NCBI GenBank assembly: GCA_017649565.1
Contig: JAGCGO010000082.1
Coordinates: forward strand, 1 to 64,000
Direction: 5' to 3'
DNA: 64,000 nucleotides
From: Fibrobacter sp.
Lineage (GTDB): Bacteria > Fibrobacterota > Fibrobacteria > Fibrobacterales > Fibrobacteraceae
This document shows, in pieces, positions 53,881-62,331 of the stretch (position 1 is the stretch's first letter; every line of letters begins with the position of its first letter). Position numbers and translations under genes: made by a program. Under the pieces are notes generated by a model. That model saw only the letters and a program-made list of their open reading frames with translations. It had not been told where the DNA came from and ran no database searches.

Positions 53881-54105
53881 ATGAACATAAAAATAAGCGA
53901 GCACGCGGCGCAAAGGATGGCGGAACGGAATATTTCCGAAGACGCGGTCCGGAAAGCGTTCGATGCCGAGGACTGGGAATCCTACGATGTGTCCGAAGTT
54001 GACGAATCCGCCATAATCCTGACAAAGACAATCAACGGGAAAAAATGGTCTTTCGTTTTTAACTGGGAAACAGCAACACTTATCACCTGCTTTCCGAGGA
54101 GGTAA
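53881..54105 (+). CDS. DUF4258/BrnT-like toxin of a toxin-antitoxin pair
   Basis: 74 residues. The motif ISEHAAQRMAERNISEDAVRKAF near the N-terminus and the C-terminal WSFVFNWETATLITCFPRR are typical of the small DUF4258/RelE-like RNase toxins (BrnT and relatives). AAAAGG lies six bases before the ATG. It ends three bases before the antitoxin start. Toxin-first order is as in BrnTA. An in-frame extension to 53821 exists but has no ribosome binding site and crosses the operator. Confidence 0.8.
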   Translation: MNIKISEHAAQRMAERNISEDAVRKAFDAEDWESYDVSEVDESAIILTKTINGKKWSFVFNWETATLITCFPRR

Positions 54106-54108
54106 TAC

Positions 54109-54435
54109 ATGTACAAGGGACTTACCAAAAAAGAGATCAAAATTGCCAAGCACTACGAGAATATAACGGAAGCCGAAGCTGATGCGGAACACAAGTGGGC
54201 CGAGGCAAATGGTCTGTCTTTTTCCGGTCCGGGAGCATTGTCTAAGGCAATTGCCACAGCGAAAGAACGCCGCAAGCAAATGGTGTCCATGAGGCTTGAT
54301 CTCGAGAACATTGAAGGCATGAAGGAACGCGCAAAGGTTGAAGGAATCCCTTACCAAACACTCATCAATTCCGTTCTGCACAGGTTTCTCAACGGCGATC
54401 TTGTTTCGAAGGATTCTCTAAAGACGGCCGTGTAG
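54109..54435 (+). CDS. CopG/BrnA-type antitoxin
   Basis: 108 residues. The C-terminal half (VSMRLDLENIEGMKERAKVEGIPYQTLINSVLHRFLNG) is a ribbon-helix-helix of the CopG-antitoxin family (PF12441-like). The N-terminal half should wrap the toxin. Its GAGGAGG lies in the last codons of the toxin gene, so translation is coupled. It should repress its own promoter through the ATTGAC/GTCAAT repeat. Confidence 0.85.
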   Translation: MYKGLTKKEIKIAKHYENITEAEADAEHKWAEANGLSFSGPGALSKAIATAKERRKQMVSMRLDLENIEGMKERAKVEGIPYQTLINSVLHRFLNGDLVSKDSLKTAV

Positions 54436-54584: not shown

Positions 54585-55592
54585 TCAGTACCGCGCGGTC
54601 ATTTTTCTAGCCGTGTCACGAATCATTCGCTGAAGCGACTTAGGTTTTTCAACGTACGCGATGTCGCCAAAGAACATAACCCACTGTTTTAGGTAATCAT
54701 TCACCTCCCCCTTTATCGTCACACGTAAATTCTCTTTACGTTCCTCGATGCGCATGGATAAATTGTAAGGACGTTCCCTAAGCGTATTCCATATATGTTT
54801 TTCAAACAGGATGACAATTTCCTCGGTCTTGGGAGATTGTTCTCCCAGCAGGAAAGCCCCCGAGGTAACCCGGGCCCGCAAAGATTCCAACACCTTCGGA
54901 TCTTCCGTAAACTGTTCGCGTGTGAGCTTTGCCGATTCAATGCGGCAGAGCTTTAAAGCATAGGTCGCTCCTGGATTACTCTGCGACACGCATCCGACAT
55001 ATATATCTCCATGATGCACAACAATCATCAGAGGGACACGGGTTTTCTCGGAGACATTCCCCCAGTTGTCTAGGTAGCGTAACTGCACCTTACGCCGTTC
55101 ACCAATTGCCCGCAAGATCGTGTACAATACTTTTGCCGAATTTTCCTCAAAGCTAGGAGGAGTTCCCATAAAGAGTATTCGTGAATTCAGTGCGGAATAA
55201 AGTTGCGAAAGCGTATCCTGGGATTTTTTCGGGAGACTTTCGCCAATCTTTTCCGTAAGGTCAGAAATCAGCGCCGACGATGCCGGATACATATTCGCAA
55301 TGCGCTTCAAGAACACCAAATGCAACAGTGTATCGCTGAATTCAGGGAACACGAGTTTGTCAGCTTTAGGAACAGCGGCCTGGTAATACACCTTGCCGAA
55401 TTCTGTGACACGCTCGATGTAATTGCCTGGAACATTGACAAGGGCAACCATGTCGCGCTGCACATTACGCAAATCCGTCTCGGGGATCTCCAAGTTGTGC
55501 ATGATTTCGACTATGGAATAGCAGCGCGTGTAATGCGCCAACAAGAATACAAAGATATGTACCATCCGTTCGCCACGAGCCATTTCCGCCAT
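54585..55592 (-). CDS. WYL-domain transcription regulator
   Basis: 335 residues. N-terminal winged HTH (RMVHIFVFLLAHYTRCYSIVEIMHNLEI, then LRNVQRDMVAL), a WYL domain at about 155-225 (GERRKVQLRYLDNWGNVSEKTRVPLMIVVHHGDIYVGC), and a C-terminal WCX-type extension. Such proteins (PafBC, BrxR, CapW types) sense nucleic-acid or nucleotide ligands and often control defence genes. The ATG follows GGAGG by five bases. It is divergent from the tandem AAA+ gene, with a perfect palindrome between them (55644-55660) as the likely binding site. Confidence 0.9.
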   Translation of the reverse strand: MAEMARGERMVHIFVFLLAHYTRCYSIVEIMHNLEIPETDLRNVQRDMVALVNVPGNYIERVTEFGKVYYQAAVPKADKLVFPEFSDTLLHLVFLKRIANMYPASSALISDLTEKIGESLPKKSQDTLSQLYSALNSRILFMGTPPSFEENSAKVLYTILRAIGERRKVQLRYLDNWGNVSEKTRVPLMIVVHHGDIYVGCVSQSNPGATYALKLCRIESAKLTREQFTEDPKVLESLRARVTSGAFLLGEQSPKTEEIVILFEKHIWNTLRERPYNLSMRIEERKENLRVTIKGEVNDYLKQWVMFFGDIAYVEKPKSLQRMIRDTARKMTARY

Positions 55593-55643
55593 AAAGCCTC
55601 CGTTTTACCATTGTCTTCCTTTCCAATAATATATAAAAAGCAC

Positions 55644-55676
55644 ACGACAATAATTGTCGTCTCCTGATTTTATATT
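55644..55676. promoter_or_regulatory. Operator palindrome and -10 box between WYL and AAA+ genes
   Basis: ACGACAAT-A-ATTGTCGT (55644-55660) is a perfect 8-1-8 palindrome. The core GACAATAATTGTC is followed by 12 bases and then TATATT (55671-55676) reading right. It lies over the -35 position, as for a repressor or WYL activator. The same core and spacing occur at 59569. Confidence 0.85.
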
Positions 55677-55700
55677 GCATTGCAAAAAGAGGCCCTTGCA

Positions 55701-58034
55701 ATGCAATTACATTTTGAAAACACACCAGATAAATATATTGCCAACTCTCTTAAAAGGCTAGAAAGCGAGCGCTCTATAAAGAAAGAACAAGATTCGCGGC
55801 AACCGTTTATTGATTTAAAGCTCATGGAATATTGGGTGCGCTTTATGCGCATGTACCCTGATGGTTGCTGTAAAGGATTTTGCGATTATTACATGACAGA
55901 ACCGTATCTAATAGAATTCGCCGACAGAATTTACGACATTCGCAATCAAATTGATTTTCCACAATACACCATTGCAGAAATAGACGAAAAAAGATACCAT
56001 ACAAACGAGCTGCTTGAAGAATTTCACAAAAACAGAGATTTACGTTTTGCCAAGCAATTTTTCGACATCATCGTCTATTTAGATAAAGCCAACAATTGCG
56101 TAAGACAAGTTCTTGTGCAAGTTATTGACAAATGTGCCTCCGATTGGATAAGAAAGGGATGCGCATCCGACGACACCTCATTGAAAAGATTATTTGAACT
56201 AAAAAAAATATTCCATCTCTCTGACGAAGCGATTGAAGTGGTTCTTTATCTATGGCTCCGCAACCACAATCGCCTATTATTGAAACTAGAACCGTCCCGT
56301 ACAAAGGATGAGATTTTCTTTGATTACAACGAACGCGGTTCTTTCAAACGAATCGCACTTCTTACTGGGCTTGAACCGAGCGTAATCCAGAAGCTCTGTT
56401 CCAAAGAAAGTCCGCTTATCAAATTTCATCTGGTTCAAATGGAAGAGACCTTTCGAAACGCAGATCTCAGAATCAAGCGCAAAGAACTGTATCTCGCCGA
56501 CGATGTCAGCAATTTTCTCTATGGTTTTTCAAGCATATCCCACATAATCAACTATAACGTAGCCGAACCCCCGATTGTTCCATTTGAACAGATTGCCGCG
56601 CAGAACCAACACGCATTGTTTACACTGCAATTGTTACAGAACCATAAAAAAGGCACTCCGCTCAACATCATGTTTTATGGTAAAGAGGGGACAGGCAAAA
56701 CGGAACTAGCAAAAGCCCTAGCGAAAAAGATGAACGTTCCGATGCTTTCGATAGGCCTTGGTGAAGAAACAATGGGCGAAGAAGCCCTGCTTCACCACCG
56801 TTTGCGATCCATGCTATTGGCAGAATGGGATTGCGAAAGGGACGGCGGATTCATCTTGATGGACGAAGCAGATCTTGTGCTGAACAAGGGAGAAAAAGGT
56901 TTGCTCAATATCATGTTCGAAAACTTGAAAGTGCCGGTAATCTGGATAACAAACAATATCGCCTCCATAGAAAACAGCACTCGTCGCCGTTTCGATTATG
57001 CCATCGAATTTTCAATATTCGGAAAGCAGGAGCGCGTAGCCATATGGCAATCCGTGCTAAAAGCACAGCACGCAGAAACCATGATGGATGCGGAATCGAT
57101 TGAAAAGATTGCAGCCGAAATTCCCGTGATGGCCGGTAGCGCCACCCTGGCCGTCAAAGCAGCAAAGCAGTTTTCCACAGACGTAAGCAGCGGCAACACT
57201 ATTGGGATTGCGCAGCAGCAGCAAATCATTCGCGAAGTCGCCAGTTCCCATGCAAAACTTCTAGGAATCGAAATCTCAAACAACAAGCAGCAGCAAACCG
57301 GATTTTTCCGCAAAGACTACATTCATCTTTCAGGTAGCTGCAACGATCCTCTTCATTACGTGATTCCCACATTACAGAATTTCGGCTCGAGGTTGAGACA
57401 AAGTAAAGATACGGAGTCCCGCGAAAACCTGAACATCCTTCTATACGGCCCTCCGGGAACAGGAAAAACGGCTTTCGCGAATCACATTGCTCACAATATC
57501 CTGCACCAGGACATAATCGTAAAACGCGCAAGCGATATCTTGGGCGGGCTTGTCGGTGAAACGGAGCGGAACATTCGCAACATTTTCAAGGAAGCTGAGC
57601 AAAACAACGCCATACTGTTCATCGACGAGGCGGACAGCTTTTTAGAAAGTCGGGCTGAGGCACAGCACCACTGGGAAGTTTCACAGGTCAACGAATTCAT
57701 TTGCCAGATGGATGCATTCAACGGACTATTTATCGCCGCAACAAATTTTGAGCGAACTCTAGACAAGGCGATAAGACGAAGGTTCCAATTGAAAATCGCA
57801 TTTGATTATTTGGCTCACGCACAAGTAAAAAACATTTGGAATGATTTTTTCGGATGTGAATGCCCCGAGACCATCCTCAAACAAGGCGAAATCTCCATCA
57901 GCGACTTTGCGACCGTCCACCAAAGACTCCGTTACATGCCCGAGAAAATCAAAACAACCGAGCTCATAACGAAATATATGCTTGACGAAATCAACAACAG
58001 AGACGACCACCACGGACGCAAACTGGGACTGTAA
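55701..58034 (+). CDS. Tandem AAA+ ATPase
   Basis: 777 residues. An alpha-helical N-terminal part of about 300 residues of unknown family comes first. AAA+ domain 1 follows (Walker A GKEGTGKT at 327-334, Walker B FILMDEADLVL), then AAA+ domain 2 (Walker A GPPGTGKT at 583-590, Walker B AILFIDEADSFL, arginine finger region RRRFQ). Both sites look active. Domain 2 is like FtsH/Vps4-type remodellers. The ATG at 55701 is chosen because AGAGG precedes it and the -10 box is 25 bases upstream; a TTG at 55680 lies at the transcript start. Divergent from the WYL gene, so probably under its control. A role in phage defence or protein remodelling is inference. Confidence 0.88.
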   Translation: MQLHFENTPDKYIANSLKRLESERSIKKEQDSRQPFIDLKLMEYWVRFMRMYPDGCCKGFCDYYMTEPYLIEFADRIYDIRNQIDFPQYTIAEIDEKRYHTNELLEEFHKNRDLRFAKQFFDIIVYLDKANNCVRQVLVQVIDKCASDWIRKGCASDDTSLKRLFELKKIFHLSDEAIEVVLYLWLRNHNRLLLKLEPSRTKDEIFFDYNERGSFKRIALLTGLEPSVIQKLCSKESPLIKFHLVQMEETFRNADLRIKRKELYLADDVSNFLYGFSSISHIINYNVAEPPIVPFEQIAAQNQHALFTLQLLQNHKKGTPLNIMFYGKEGTGKTELAKALAKKMNVPMLSIGLGEETMGEEALLHHRLRSMLLAEWDCERDGGFILMDEADLVLNKGEKGLLNIMFENLKVPVIWITNNIASIENSTRRRFDYAIEFSIFGKQERVAIWQSVLKAQHAETMMDAESIEKIAAEIPVMAGSATLAVKAAKQFSTDVSSGNTIGIAQQQQIIREVASSHAKLLGIEISNNKQQQTGFFRKDYIHLSGSCNDPLHYVIPTLQNFGSRLRQSKDTESRENLNILLYGPPGTGKTAFANHIAHNILHQDIIVKRASDILGGLVGETERNIRNIFKEAEQNNAILFIDEADSFLESRAEAQHHWEVSQVNEFICQMDAFNGLFIAATNFERTLDKAIRRRFQLKIAFDYLAHAQVKNIWNDFFGCECPETILKQGEISISDFATVHQRLRYMPEKIKTTELITKYMLDEINNRDDHHGRKLGL

Positions 58035-58073
58035 TTGGGGAGATTGGTACAATTTTTGGCAAATAGACGTATT

Positions 58074-58147
58074 TTAATCCATTATAATGGACTAATTTTT
58101 AAATTTTAGTCCATTTTAATAAGCAAAAATATATATTTTAGTCCATT
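58074..58147 (+). repeat. Iterated TTAGTCCATT sites upstream of the AAA_14 gene
   Basis: TTAATCCATT at 58074, TTAGTCCATT at 58106 and TTAGTCCATT at 58138 are direct repeats exactly 32 bp apart. An inverted copy AATGGACTAA at 58086 forms the palindrome TCCATTATAATGGA with the first. The last copy ends 13 bases before the start codon. The layout suggests several binding sites for one regulator. Confidence 0.8.
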
Positions 58148-58159
58148 AAGAGGTGGCTT

Positions 58160-59446
58160 ATGGACGAAAAGAAATTATTGCAGGTTCTGGCGGAACAAAA
58201 AGAGGAAATCACCACGAAACACAATTCCTGGGTGTCGCGTTACGAGGAATCCTTGTTTGAACTGAACAGTTCGCTTGCGCAGGTGGTCATCGGGGTTCGT
58301 CGTAGCGGAAAATCGACACTTTGCCACAAGGTTCTGCAAGATCACGGCATTAACTATGCCTATGCAAACCTTGACGACGACCGGTTGATGTCGCTTACTA
58401 CTGAAGATTTGAATACGCTTCTGCTTTGCCTTTATCAACTCTATGGCACAGACATCCAATACATACTCCTCGACGAAATCCAAAACGTGGATGGATGGCA
58501 TTTGTTCGTGAACCGTCTTTTGCGCCAGGGACTGCACGTGTTTGTGACAGGCTCCAATGCAAAATTGCTGAGTAGCGAACTTGCCACGCACCTGACCGGA
58601 CGTTATAATGAAATCCGTCTCTATCCGCTTTCGTTTACTGAATACTGCGCTTTTCATCAGGTGAATCTGCATGATATTACAACCAAGGCCGAAGCCGCTC
58701 GGAAATCGGCATTTCTTGAATACCTGCAATATGGCGGATTCCCGGAACTGCAAAGTGTCAGCAACAAACGCGCCTATATACAAAGTTTGCTTGATTCTAT
58801 AATACTAAAGGATATTGCCGGACGCTTCAAAATCCGACATGCCGAAGTTCTTCGAACCATTGCAAATCATTTGATCAACAATTCTTGCCAAGAAACCAAT
58901 TACAAATCTTTGGCCGAGAATTTTGGACTAAGCAGCACCACGACTGCGATAAAATATGTGGATTATTTGAAACAAGCTTTTTTGATTGGACTGTTGAACA
59001 AGCATTCGTTCAAAAGTAAAATTCGCCTTCGCAACAACAAGGCATATGTGATTGATACGGGGTTCATCACCAATCGTGAAAACGCGCTCTCGCAAGAGAA
59101 TCTGGGTTGGCGACTTGAGAATGTGGTTTACATCGAGTTGTTGCGACGAGCCGCAAAGAAGTTTGACGATGTTTACTACTACAAGCGCTCATCGCAATCT
59201 AAAGAAGTGGATTTTGTCGTTTGCAGACAAGGCAACGCTAAGGAACTTGTGCAAGTCGCATACGAGATAGAATCGACCAAGACATTCAACCGAGAAACTT
59301 CGGCTTTGATTAACGCATCCGAAAGTTTGCGATGTGATAACCTGACCTTGGTGTGTTTTGAAGAAAGTCGCGACGAACTTGTAAAAGGCAGGACCATCCG
59401 CATAAGAAACGCTCTGGAGTGGAGTCTTGAGCCTGGGAAAGTGTAG
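58160..59446 (+). CDS. AAA_14/DUF4143 family ATP-binding protein
   Basis: 428 residues. AAA_14 domain with Walker A GVRRSGKST (45-53) and Walker B YILLDEIQNVDGW (near 105), then LTGRYNEIRLYPLSFTEY. The C-terminal DUF4143 domain has KRSSQSKEVDFVVCRQG, a PD-(D/E)XK-like pattern. These proteins are common in gut and rumen bacteria; their role is unknown. AAGAGGTGG precedes the ATG. It has its own upstream region with repeated sites and may be separate from the AAA+ gene before it. Confidence 0.92.
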   Translation: MDEKKLLQVLAEQKEEITTKHNSWVSRYEESLFELNSSLAQVVIGVRRSGKSTLCHKVLQDHGINYAYANLDDDRLMSLTTEDLNTLLLCLYQLYGTDIQYILLDEIQNVDGWHLFVNRLLRQGLHVFVTGSNAKLLSSELATHLTGRYNEIRLYPLSFTEYCAFHQVNLHDITTKAEAARKSAFLEYLQYGGFPELQSVSNKRAYIQSLLDSIILKDIAGRFKIRHAEVLRTIANHLINNSCQETNYKSLAENFGLSSTTTAIKYVDYLKQAFLIGLLNKHSFKSKIRLRNNKAYVIDTGFITNRENALSQENLGWRLENVVYIELLRRAAKKFDDVYYYKRSSQSKEVDFVVCRQGNAKELVQVAYEIESTKTFNRETSALINASESLRCDNLTLVCFEESRDELVKGRTIRIRNALEWSLEPGKV

Positions 59447-59636
59447 AATAACCTCTTTTTTCGTGTTCCACCCTGTAAAAATTTGATTATTTTTGCCGAA
59501 CCTTGAATGGGTAATCGCATTAACTCCACGCTTTTTTTTGTGGGGCATGCAAAGAGGCCGGTTTAGAAGACAATTATTGTCGCCTAGCAATCGTATATTC
59601 ATACTACGGCAAAACTCACGGAAATGCGAGGACCTT
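59447..59636 (+). promoter_or_regulatory. Upstream region with operator palindrome and -10 box of the small-protein cluster
   Basis: GACAAT-T-ATTGTC at 59569-59581 is the reverse complement of the core at 55646-55658. Twelve bases later TATATT (59594-59599) forms a -10 box, giving a transcript start near 59606. Shared GCAAA(AA)GAGGCC words occur near both sites. No gene is seen in the rest of the stretch. Confidence 0.82.
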
Positions 59637-59717
59637 ATGAGAAAACTGATGAACTTGATAAACCCGCTAGTGAAATCGATTCGGAACTACTGTATTGACT
59701 GCTGGCTCAAACAATAG
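59637..59717 (+). CDS. 26-residue peptide, first in the cluster
   Basis: MRKLMNLINPLVKSIRNYC then IDCWLKQ. A small basic amphipathic peptide with two Cys three apart. GAGG lies seven bases before the ATG, and the predicted transcript starts about 30 bases upstream, so it should be translated. It may be a leader, a membrane-active peptide, or a partner of the zinc finger protein that starts ten bases later. Too short to assign by homology. Confidence 0.5.
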   Translation: MRKLMNLINPLVKSIRNYCIDCWLKQ

Positions 59718-59727
59718 GGCGCGAAGC

Positions 59728-59943
59728 ATGACTTACTACTGCAAGAAGTGCGGCCAATCCTATTCGGATTTTGCGTACATGACGCGGCACGCCAATTGTC
59801 CTAAAGGCGGCCATTGTGAACCCTATGAAGGTCGTGAAACAGGTCCCTGGCATTGTAAGAAATGCGGGCGAACCTACACGGATTTTAAATATATGCTTCA
59901 GCATACTTACTGCGAAAAAGGCGGCAAGTGTGAGCCGTTTTAA
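59728..59943 (+). CDS. Small double zinc-finger protein
   Basis: 71 residues made of two near-identical 38-residue units. Zinc ligands are Cys5, Cys8, His21 and Cys24, then Cys43, Cys46, His59 and Cys62, a C2HC pattern. Each unit ends GGxCEP with an extra Cys (30 and 68). The units share CKKCG(Q/R)(S/T)Y(S/T)DF(A/K)YM. Likely binds DNA, RNA or a partner protein. Its ribosome binding site is weak, so translation is probably coupled to the 26-residue frame upstream. Confidence 0.8.
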   Translation: MTYYCKKCGQSYSDFAYMTRHANCPKGGHCEPYEGRETGPWHCKKCGRTYTDFKYMLQHTYCEKGGKCEPF

Positions 59944-60050
59944 GGAGCAGTTCTGAGGAAAAATGTATGAATAAATATTACCATCAATGCCCCAAAGAGA
60001 GAAAAATATTATTTTAATGTTGAGCAAATTGAACTAAAAAAGGATAGCCC

Positions 60051-60701
60051 ATGTCAGAGAAAAATGATCTAGAGAAACAATTTGAAAACATGATTGTCCT
60101 TATTGACAAATTCGGAAAATCTGGCGTTGCCAAAGATGCCTCATCACTAGCTTCATCTACGGCAGATTTCGCTGGCAATGTAGCTTCTTCTGTGGCTAAC
60201 ATCGCATGCAGTGCCACAGGGGCTATTAAAGACGTCACTCTTGAAGTAATAGATCTTCCCAAAACTATTTTAGAAACCAGACAAAAACAAAAGGAATGGG
60301 AACACGAAGAAAGAATGCATGAAAAAGAATTGCAGTATAAGGAAAAATTTATCAAAGAACAAGGAGAAATACTAAAATTTGCCATAGAAGCCTCCTTAAA
60401 GGTCTATGATAAAAAAGTAGATTTTTTCACAAAACGACTCGAAGATCTAGAAAAAACACATTGTATGGAACAAAAATTACTAAATGAAAGAATCGCCCAC
60501 CTTGAAACAGAACGAAAAAATTGTATAGACAACATTGAGGCATTCACACGGTTATCTACCGATATAATGTATTTAGAAGACAAGAGCTCTGAACTAGAAA
60601 TACATTACTTAAACGCCAAGGGAAATCTTGATGATTCAATAAAGGCCTTGAATTTAGAACTGCCAAACCATTTTGGGGCCAACTTTATTGGGAGAGAATA
60701 A
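60051..60701 (+). CDS. Coiled-coil protein with Ala/Ser-rich helix
   Basis: 216 residues, function unknown. Residues about 28-68 are Ala/Ser/Gly-rich (ASSLASSTADFAGNVASSVA), and could form a small-residue helix pair. Residues about 78-180 are a long charged coiled coil (KQKEWEHEERMHEKELQYKEK). AAAAGGAT precedes the ATG. It ends one base before the next gene, so the two are coupled. Confidence 0.75.
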   Translation: MSEKNDLEKQFENMIVLIDKFGKSGVAKDASSLASSTADFAGNVASSVANIACSATGAIKDVTLEVIDLPKTILETRQKQKEWEHEERMHEKELQYKEKFIKEQGEILKFAIEASLKVYDKKVDFFTKRLEDLEKTHCMEQKLLNERIAHLETERKNCIDNIEAFTRLSTDIMYLEDKSSELEIHYLNAKGNLDDSIKALNLELPNHFGANFIGRE

Positions 60702-60702
60702 A

Positions 60703-61599
60703 ATGAGTTCTCAAGTCCTTATCACAATTTTAGCAGCCGCGCTGCTAATTTTTTTATTTTTCTTCATTCTATTGCTCATAAGGAAAAAAGAACAAAAAAA
60801 AGAACAAGAAAAAGCAAAAAAAGAAAAAGAACAGGCCGTTTTAAACAATAAAATATCAAACACTGCTCAAATTATTTTTGACGAAATAAAAGACATTGAT
60901 TTAATACCTAAAGCTCTAAATTTTATTGCTAGTTATGAAAAAGAATTAAAAACCTTGAAGAAGAATCAAAAAAGATGGGAAAAAGAGTACAATATCGAAC
61001 AAAGTAAAAATTTTGTATCCAAACTATGGGGTGGAAAAAAGCGAAAAGAAGCAATAAACAATAAGAGAATCGAAATTTTATCTAAGATAGCTGAATACGA
61101 AACCGAGAACTCCACTGAATACAAGAAATGTTTAGGTATATTGGAAAAAATTGACATTTCTTTTTACAACGAAAACAAATCTTCGGTCCAAAAAAAATAC
61201 GGAGAACTTATAAGCAATAGGCAAAAAGAAATAGAAAAAGAAAACACAGAAAAGCAGCGAATTAACGAAGAAAGAATAAGAAAACTTGTTTATTCTAAAC
61301 GTATTCCGCAAATGATAGGAAGGTTAGAAGAATACGTCATCTTTTTGCAAAAACATACACGAGAACACACCAACATAAATTTAGAATCCTTGAGATATAT
61401 TGAAAACAGCCTAGATGAGATTCGTGCTATTAAGGACTATCTAGATCAAAAAGACATGAATAAACTAGAAACATGCTCTCAAAAAATCATGTTTATACTT
61501 AAAAATTACAGGCTAGATGAAATGTTCCAAATAGATATACGTAGAGTTGAAGAATTGTTTTCAAAAATTATAGATAAAGTAGACTCAATATCATGTTAA
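60703..61599 (+). CDS. Membrane-anchored coiled-coil protein
   Basis: 298 residues. One N-terminal membrane helix (about 4-25, VLITILAAALLIFLFFFILL) followed by a very Lys/Glu-rich stretch and a long coiled coil. The plan (single anchor, large cytoplasmic helix) fits a membrane-tethered sensor or effector. It starts at ATG 60703, one base after the previous stop, with GGGAGAG as its ribosome binding site. No family recognised. The DNA is very AT-rich. Confidence 0.75.
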   Translation: MSSQVLITILAAALLIFLFFFILLLIRKKEQKKEQEKAKKEKEQAVLNNKISNTAQIIFDEIKDIDLIPKALNFIASYEKELKTLKKNQKRWEKEYNIEQSKNFVSKLWGGKKRKEAINNKRIEILSKIAEYETENSTEYKKCLGILEKIDISFYNENKSSVQKKYGELISNRQKEIEKENTEKQRINEERIRKLVYSKRIPQMIGRLEEYVIFLQKHTREHTNINLESLRYIENSLDEIRAIKDYLDQKDMNKLETCSQKIMFILKNYRLDEMFQIDIRRVEELFSKIIDKVDSISC

Positions 61600-61650
61600 G
61601 GGGATTCCTTGTCTAACAAAACTTGCAAACTACGTCAGGGAGAATCTCTT

Positions 61651-62331
61651 ATGAAAAATCTCACCAAACAAATTTTCGCACCCATTTTCGACAATATGAA
61701 ATTGGCTGAAAACGATTTTTGTCAAAAATGCAACGCAGCATACAAGACTCCGTTATTGCCTTGGATTGTTGGCGGAGAATACGAAAACTCAAAATATCGG
61801 TTGATGATTGTGGGAAAGCCGCATCGTGGTGATGCAGTACCTATTTCCAAACATGCAGGTACAATGGATTATTGCATTGATTGGTTAATGAATTGTTCTT
61901 GGGCATATTGGTCCTATTCACGAGAAATCGCTCAGCAATTGTATGGCTCTACGGGAATGAACCAAATAGTCATGACAAACGTGGTAAAGTGTACAAATAC
62001 TGAAGGCAAAGATACCACAACGAATGAGATGCTTGACAATTGTATTCAAAGGAATGGGGTTATCTGGAGAGAAATCCGAGAAACGAAACCACTCAATATT
62101 TTATTCTACACTCATAAACTTTGCGCTAGCTATCTACAAGCAATTCCATTCCAAAAGGAACTGATAAAAGAAGAAAGAAAAAGCGTAATGTGCGGAGCCA
62201 AGACAATGCCCTGGTGGGAAAGAGTTATTTTGACTGATTGGGGAAAAGTCAAAATCCTAGTCACAAATCACCCAGAAAGAATGGACAAGGGCGATTACAT
62301 AAAACTTATAACTGACTGGGTAAGAAAGTAA
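61651..62331 (+). CDS. Uracil-DNA-glycosylase-superfamily-like protein
   Basis: 226 residues. The order of motifs follows the UDG fold: LMIVGKPHRGD at 51-61 (as in VGEAPG), MTNVVKCTN at 108-116 (as in NVVKCRPP), a middle Cys plus EIRETKPLNILFY, and LVTNHPER at 203-210 (as in the HPS motif). The first motif has Lys/Pro/His/Arg instead of the usual Glu-Ala-Pro-Gly, so catalysis may differ. Two CxxC-type Cys (24, 27) near the start could bind metal. The ATG at 61651 has AGGGAG upstream; a TTG start at 61609 behind AAGGGG is possible. Last gene of the cluster. Confidence 0.7.
   Translation: MKNLTKQIFAPIFDNMKLAENDFCQKCNAAYKTPLLPWIVGGEYENSKYRLMIVGKPHRGDAVPISKHAGTMDYCIDWLMNCSWAYWSYSREIAQQLYGSTGMNQIVMTNVVKCTNTEGKDTTTNEMLDNCIQRNGVIWREIRETKPLNILFYTHKLCASYLQAIPFQKELIKEERKSVMCGAKTMPWWERVILTDWGKVKILVTNHPERMDKGDYIKLITDWVRK

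Follow-up and report, generated by a model that had tools for sequence, protein, structure and literature searches.

A shared operator-promoter head in a candidate anti-phage island of Fibrobacter and its putative DriD-type WYL regulator

Background

How bacteria coordinate their many defences is poorly known. The WYL-domain controllers of defence found in print act on an adjacent island via one or two boxes (PMC9122601, PMC9122588; this and the comparisons below follow the available parts of the cited reports). Here we analyze a candidate defence island at positions 54585..62331 of a 64,000-nucleotide stretch of DNA from Fibrobacter sp. (contig JAGCGO010000082.1, positions 1 to 64,000; hereafter "the window", corresponding to contig C97:1-64000 of a source genome of 3,452,024 bases in 120 contigs). 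It comprises a WYL regulator, a tandem AAA+ ATPase and an operon of zinc-finger, coiled-coil and uracil-DNA glycosylase (UDG)-like proteins. In what follows, G, C and L denote genomes, contigs and loci.

The closest described system is that of DriD from Caulobacter crescentus, an activator composed of winged helix-turn-helix (wHTH), WYL and WCX domains, which controls the DNA-damage genes didA, bapE, recJ and dnaG (PMC12340889). The window locus resembles it in the predicted fold of the regulator, in the site ACGAC-N7-GTCGT, in the poor -35 element lying under the site at a fixed distance from the -10 element, in the bidirectional promoter at the regulator gene and in the presence of several promoters under one regulator. 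It differs from DriD, which according to the same text regulates DNA-damage genes rather than a defence island, does not activate its own gene and is described without an AAA+ partner (PMC12340889); the aligned folds share 14-17% sequence identity. PafBC and SiwR from mycobacteria are likewise WYL activators responding to single-stranded DNA (ssDNA) or genotoxic stress, and PafBC recognizes a TTGTC-N12-TAnnnT motif with a contact at the -26 region; however, PafBC is heterodimeric and its site is non-palindromic, SiwR acts on one neighbouring operon, and in the available text neither controls a defence island (PMC11804915, PMC5656591, PMC10693628).

Among the regulators of defence, BrxR is a WYL protein in control of a BREX island that defends against phages and contains two boxes (R-BOX1 and a putative R-BOX2), but it is a repressor whose box lies downstream of its promoter, and operator-tagged exchangeable cassettes are not reported in the available part of its description (PMC9122601). 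CapW from CBASS is a WYL regulator with a palindrome serving both directions and an ssDNA ligand, but it represses one adjacent system from a site over the -10 element (PMC9122588). RptR also serves a defence island as a single regulator with conserved sites, but it is a non-WYL repressor that binds direct repeats of a 6-bp palindrome (PMC12255303). WYL control of defence and DriD-type activation are each known separately, and BrxR already has two boxes in one island; in the open-licence literature we recognized no paper that joins WYL control of defence and DriD-type activation in a multi-cassette regulon.

Results and discussion

Operators and promoters of the window

The first operator, the palindrome ACGACAATAATTGTCGT (55644..55660, core 55646-55658, no strand), is common to the divergent promoters of the WYL and AAA+ genes, while the second, GACAATTATTGTC (59569..59581, no strand; left outer arm AAGAC, right arm GTCGC), repeats the core in reverse complement ahead of the small-protein cluster, exactly as a preliminary description of this DNA had it. 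The same holds for the TATATT boxes that it reported exactly 12 bases after both cores, which resemble -10 elements of the AAA+ promoter (55671..55676, strand +) and of the cassette promoter (59594..59599, strand +). A further -10-like TATATT, 12 bases off the first core on the opposite strand (55628..55633, strand -), faces the WYL gene, and therefore we regard site 1 as a two-way promoter. The N12 spacing is identical in all three promoters, and the -35 region under the operator shows 0-2 of 6 matches to TTGACA. Site 1 is an exact ACGAC-N7-GTCGT, and site 2 reads AAGAC-N7-GTCGC.

The exact core occurs in the source genome three times, always on C97 (55646, 59569 and 78104), vs about 0.10 copies expected from base composition, which bears out the earlier view that chance is an unlikely explanation. 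Nor is the motif frequent in the genome, an outcome that the preliminary description had named as contrary to its proposal: GACANNNNNTGTC-N12-TATATT has four oriented matches there and the reversed control has none. When two mismatches were allowed, the motif (44 matches) was mildly above the reversed control (25 matches), hence it is the exact form and the fixed spacing that carry the signal. One may still ask whether the two sites are a coincidence or a duplicated promoter stretch of a single island, with no regulon involved, given that a promoter box accompanies only two of the genome's three exact copies; as the flanks of the two sites differ and the operator with its spacing recurs in relatives with other gene orders, we find this hardly credible. 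Chance, or a motif frequent in itself, was ruled out by the genome counts, the reversed controls and the conservation of offset 12.

The third exact core (C97:78104-78116) is located 14 kb past the window, beside a terminator-like hairpin and behind a gene that, in our own reading of the sequence, appears prs-like; TATATT is present at offset 12 on neither strand.

The WYL regulator

The regulator (54585..55592, strand -, 335 aa) exhibits wHTH, WYL and WCX domains (Pfam: WCX, E-value 5e-9; WYL, E-value 2.9e-6). Its predicted fold is nearest to DriD. The scores of BrxR and CapW are lower and do not exceed those of individual unrelated wHTH domains in the same ranking. Two arginines of the predicted recognition region, R42 and R46, are invariant in 20 WYL relatives. 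Taking together the sequence, the predicted structure and the analogy to DriD, we propose, with a probability of roughly 0.6, that the WYL protein binds the operator ahead of the WYL gene, the AAA+ gene and the zinc-finger/coiled-coil/UDG-like operon as a DriD-type activator, which would switch on an anti-phage island. To judge from the closest relatives, a WYL dimer would bind ACGAC-N7-GTCGT across the place of the missing -35 element and anchor RNA polymerase, like DriD, and it would be triggered when, in infection or on DNA damage, ssDNA binds in the WYL domain. The gene content suggests that the output is anti-phage defence. The regulator likely switches on these gene sets jointly, probably on an ssDNA signal of attack or damage, and would then be a common alarm of the whole immune island.

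Conservation of the operator in relatives

The comparison set consisted of 111 genomes of the family, many of them metagenome-assembled (the source genome is 90% complete with 6% contamination), and simple rules were used to call open reading frames (ORFs). A search at the protein level gave 82 matches to the WYL gene, spread over 57 of the 111 genomes, and for each match one stretch of at most 20 kb, ending at contig ends, was queried for the palindrome GACA-N5-TGTC with a preceding C or a following G, the -10 box not being required. Loci are referred to as close if their WYL protein shares at least 51% identity with that of the window (n=28); the remaining 54 are the more distant ones.

The 82 stretches contain 139 palindromes. 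With both directions counted, TATATT is found at offset 12 in 96 of 100 boxes, and the other offsets between 0 and 34 account for four (6, 11, 13 and 24, one each); TAnnnT likewise peaks at offset 12 (135 cases, vs 19 cases at the next highest offset). At 26 of the 28 close loci the palindrome is centred 45-163 bases upstream of the WYL gene, with offset 12 towards WYL kept in 25 of these 26 (11 in L121), and the remaining two (L125 and L126) carry a one-mismatch copy before WYL. The regulator gene itself thus has the operator in 28/28 close relatives and joins the two transcripts that the earlier suggestion had placed under one regulator, most likely the WYL protein; overall, that suggestion is supported.

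The conserved geometry bears on the main rival explanation, namely that within the same regulon the WYL protein represses, in the manner of BrxR and CapW, covering the promoter until it is released on ssDNA binding. Defence genes are indeed repressed by the ssDNA-responsive WYL proteins BrxR and CapW, polymerase could be blocked by an operator over the -35 region, and the WYL promoter has an operator of its own, as in autorepressors. However, according to the available text CapW sites overlap the -10 element and BrxR has its box downstream of the promoter (PMC9122588, PMC9122601), whereas the window cores end 12 bases upstream of TATATT in three promoters. A site over a missing -35 element, with the above spacing and at most 2 of 6 TTGACA matches, is what DriD promoters show, and BrxR and CapW are also inferior in fold score. 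We therefore consider repression rather unlikely. By site geometry and predicted fold, the activator DriD is a better match than BrxR and CapW, with which the preliminary description had drawn the comparison.

The AAA+ gene lies within the stretch at 21 of the 28 close loci (12 convergent and 9 divergent with WYL) and has its own operator directly upstream in 19 of them; L125 has a one-mismatch copy, and L132 runs off the contig. Among the 54 more distant loci, an AAA+ relative (27-44% identity) occurs in 26; it lies at most 500 bp from WYL in 20 of these and is oriented like WYL in 23. From these counts we conclude that WYL and AAA+ form an old pair, which the operator accompanies within the close clade. 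Independent occurrence of the pair and the small-protein cluster, with no common sites, had been put forward as evidence that would contradict a shared regulator; instead, relatives carry WYL, AAA+ and cassettes with common sites. The AAA+ distribution covers the 82 WYL-anchored loci and 13 loci from a contig search, the latter all titled Fibrobacter or Fibrobacterales. In a few distant clades a separate operator variant precedes WYL, e.g. GCGACATCTTTTGTCGC. Distant WYL/AAA+ pairs with variants of their own (GACATCTTTTGTCGC, GACAGTAKTTGTCGC) were observed in L137-L145, L184, L185, L117, L118 and L156, and may represent regulons that run in parallel within one genome.

In the 28 genomes that carry a close WYL gene, 99 oriented sites (TGTCG form with N12-TATATT) were counted; 82 are within 20 kb of a WYL gene, vs 2.2 expected, and 72 are within 20 kb of a close one. 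The sites are clustered, e.g. five in about 7 kb of G037:C98. One operator, kept to the base pair, links the regulator, the ATPase and changing defence-like operons in 28 genomes.

The palindrome could also belong to another regulator of the cell, e.g. of the Fur or LexA kind, with WYL, AAA+ and the cassettes as its clients. The core resembles a Fur-type box, motif matches exist in genomes that have no close WYL gene, and we retain this as a minor explanation because 17 of the 99 sites are away from WYL genes. Against it, the other 82 sites far exceed the expectation, the WYL gene is the most regular client of the operator, and the operator equals the published half-sites of DriD; we regard it as improbable. 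Across the family, 71 of 111 genomes contain GACANNNNNTGTC-N12-TATATT (reversed control: one match each in three genomes) and 34 contain GACAATNATTGTC (reversed control: one). Some of the matches that deviate from the TGTCG form may be sites of other regulators. In 10 fetched GACAATNATTGTC loci (L052, L054, L056, L058, L059, L066, L067, L070, L074 and L080), our reading of the frames places the core within a conserved signal-peptide coding sequence and not in a promoter; these loci were excluded from the regulon argument, since a core inside a coding sequence is a coincidence that raises raw motif counts.

Several observations weigh against activation by a DriD-like WYL protein or against the extent of its regulon. 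Full-length alignments to DriD have a root-mean-square deviation of 13-14, the WYL sequence alone retrieved no PDB chain at E-value 1, and our computation reproduced the DriD spacing for two of three published promoters, misplacing the bapE site. The left outer arm of site 2 is AAGAC instead of ACGAC. No AAA+ gene is present in the stretch at 7 of the 28 close loci, the AAA+ gene of G058 is broken into two frames, and in most of the 54 distant loci such an operator is absent from the sequence directly upstream of WYL. The 17 sites that are not near a WYL gene include one of the source genome (C17:18022), and several of them (G032:C45, G033:C71, G043:C2) accompany cassettes on short contigs or close to contig ends. 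Some operators have no called gene behind them, and some operator-led genes are not defence-like, encoding small proteins with no assigned role and FISUMP-type proteins. Finally, counts across genomes are non-independent events, because the genomes are related.

Exchangeable cassettes behind the operator

We found 93 oriented operator-promoters in 32 loci, with 58 gene families behind them. Apart from WYL and AAA+, these include a PLD-domain protein (Pfam, E-value 4.4e-14), a Fic protein (3.9e-13), a PIN protein (5.3e-15) with an antitoxin-like gene, a weak GNAT match, a YhgA-like protein, a GyrA-like fragment, PD-(D/E)XK and GmrSD proteins, an AAA_5 plus McrBC pair, dynamin- and septin-like GTPases and EcsC proteins. 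PADLOC reported LeoA (8.9e-183), LeoB (1.9e-125) and PDC-S26 (8e-43), and a second LeoA/LeoB pair (8e-167, 1.2e-147) is located in L100 behind a one-mismatch operator. The Eleos-type LeoA/LeoB dynamin systems occur behind the operator in relatives together with zinc-finger or UDG-like genes; the window differs in that none of its cassette proteins has a GTPase or Leo match (Pfam, PADLOC). Gene order varies between loci, while the operator and its spacing are kept. The small-protein cluster of the window lies behind the common operator, as the preliminary description claimed, but it is one of several exchangeable cassettes found there.

The odds seem to us about even that the system is a plug-in immune regulon, in which the WYL activator and the tandem AAA+ protein are constant and the anti-phage cassettes, unrelated to one another (dynamin-like, type IV restriction, nuclease, toxin-antitoxin, zinc-finger/UDG), replace each other at a standard operator-promoter head, so that a newly gained one answers at once to a single ssDNA alarm. 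The AAA+ protein would be the constant partner and the cassettes exchangeable effectors that enter the regulon by bringing the operator with their promoter. Among the least sure parts is the role of the AAA+ protein, which might either arm the cassettes or act as an effector in its own right. The weakest step concerns the window cassette, where the membrane-anchored coiled-coil pair and the zinc-finger protein might be the effector and the UDG-like DNA-binding protein the sensor; standing where relatives have dynamin-like GTPases, this cassette may link the sensing of odd DNA to the membrane. If the proposal is true, infection-borne ssDNA would trigger the whole island jointly, newly acquired defences could be wired in by their promoter, and the operator would help to track down defence genes of rumen Fibrobacter that are still undescribed, the zinc-finger/coiled-coil/UDG cassette being an example.

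In L128, L131 and L124 a protein of 337-345 aa behind AAA+ matches DNA gyrase/topoisomerase IV subunit A (PF00521, E-value 6.5e-53, profile positions 4-172 of 432); it is directly behind its own operator in two of the three loci.

Genes of the island

The preliminary gene calls for the WYL and WCX protein, the tandem AAA+ ATPase, the CopG/BrnA-type antitoxin with a DUF4258 protein and an HsdS-like protein were all borne out. The AAA+ protein (55701..58034, strand +, 777 aa) matches Pfam AAA in two stretches (E-value 7.6e-44), and its best PADLOC match, IetA (1.3e-44), is to the second AAA domain. Between the two transcripts lies a gene for an AAA_14/DUF4143 ATPase (58160..59446, strand +; PADLOC PDC-S01, E-value 3.3e-99), absent from the earlier list. 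It has no operator directly ahead in the window; an 88% identical relative in G032 (L116) has one. Several copies of TTTTAGTCCATT at 58070-58160, ahead of this gene and likewise in G032 (L116), are perhaps its own regulatory repeats.

Past the -10-like box of the cassette promoter lies a conserved leader, CGGCAAAAC...GCGAGGA...ATG (59608..59639, strand +). The motif GGYAAAAC occurs 8-11 bases past the -10 box in 8 of 142 distinct operator-promoters, with 0.56 expected anywhere in 70 bases. The 26-codon ORF at the leader ATG (59637..59717, strand +), described earlier as a 26-residue peptide, exists as such but is doubtful as a component: the relatives looked at keep the leader and not the frame, so it is probably no conserved component. 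The "double zinc finger" (59728..59943, strand +, 71 aa) does contain two C2H2-like fingers, but the match is weak, just under the Pfam cut-off (zf-C2H2, E-value 1.3e-4). The coiled-coil protein CC1 (60051..60701, strand +, 216 aa) has no Pfam family, and a homologue search returned only CC1 itself among 715 candidates; CC2 (60703..61599, strand +, 298 aa) possesses an N-terminal hydrophobic stretch. L106 encodes proteins 29% identical to CC1 and 24% identical to CC2.

The last gene (61651..62331, strand +) encodes a UDG-superfamily protein of 226 aa. Its UDG fold was found by predicted-fold comparison, and the sequence profile of its family gave only chance matches against the PDB. The family 4 UDGs are characterized by the motifs GEAPG and HPS; the window protein carries GKPHRG and HPER in these places, is 13-16% identical to family 4 UDGs and UdgX, and matches NCBIfam Arch_udg weakly (E-value 0.019). 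Five cysteines (C24, C27, C114, C131 and C181) are invariant in 22 UDG-like sequences and are candidate ligands of an Fe-S cluster.

On the other side of the regulator, 53881-54435 encodes an antitoxin of the CopG/BrnA type paired with the DUF4258 protein; L205 has a similar small pair next to a GTPase cassette, and L203 has an antitoxin-like gene.

A hairpin element upstream of cassette heads

An imperfect hairpin of about 175 bases is located upstream of cassette heads in L104 (11898-12073, strand -), L116 (3719-3894) and relatives. The window retains at 59491..59543 (strand +) a remnant of the conserved cassette head, which is longer in relatives (89-91% identity to theirs); the remnant of the hairpin element is in the same place, most of the element being missing. 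Three cassette-head loci matched nothing in Rfam up to E-value 1, and the covariance model of the element had no match in the window's genome at E-value 0.001. The model did match 75 of the 111 family genomes, often with several intergenic copies away from cassettes (E-values of RNA models are rough), and 13 predicted pairs are changed on both sides. The element is an undescribed structured RNA or repeat family.
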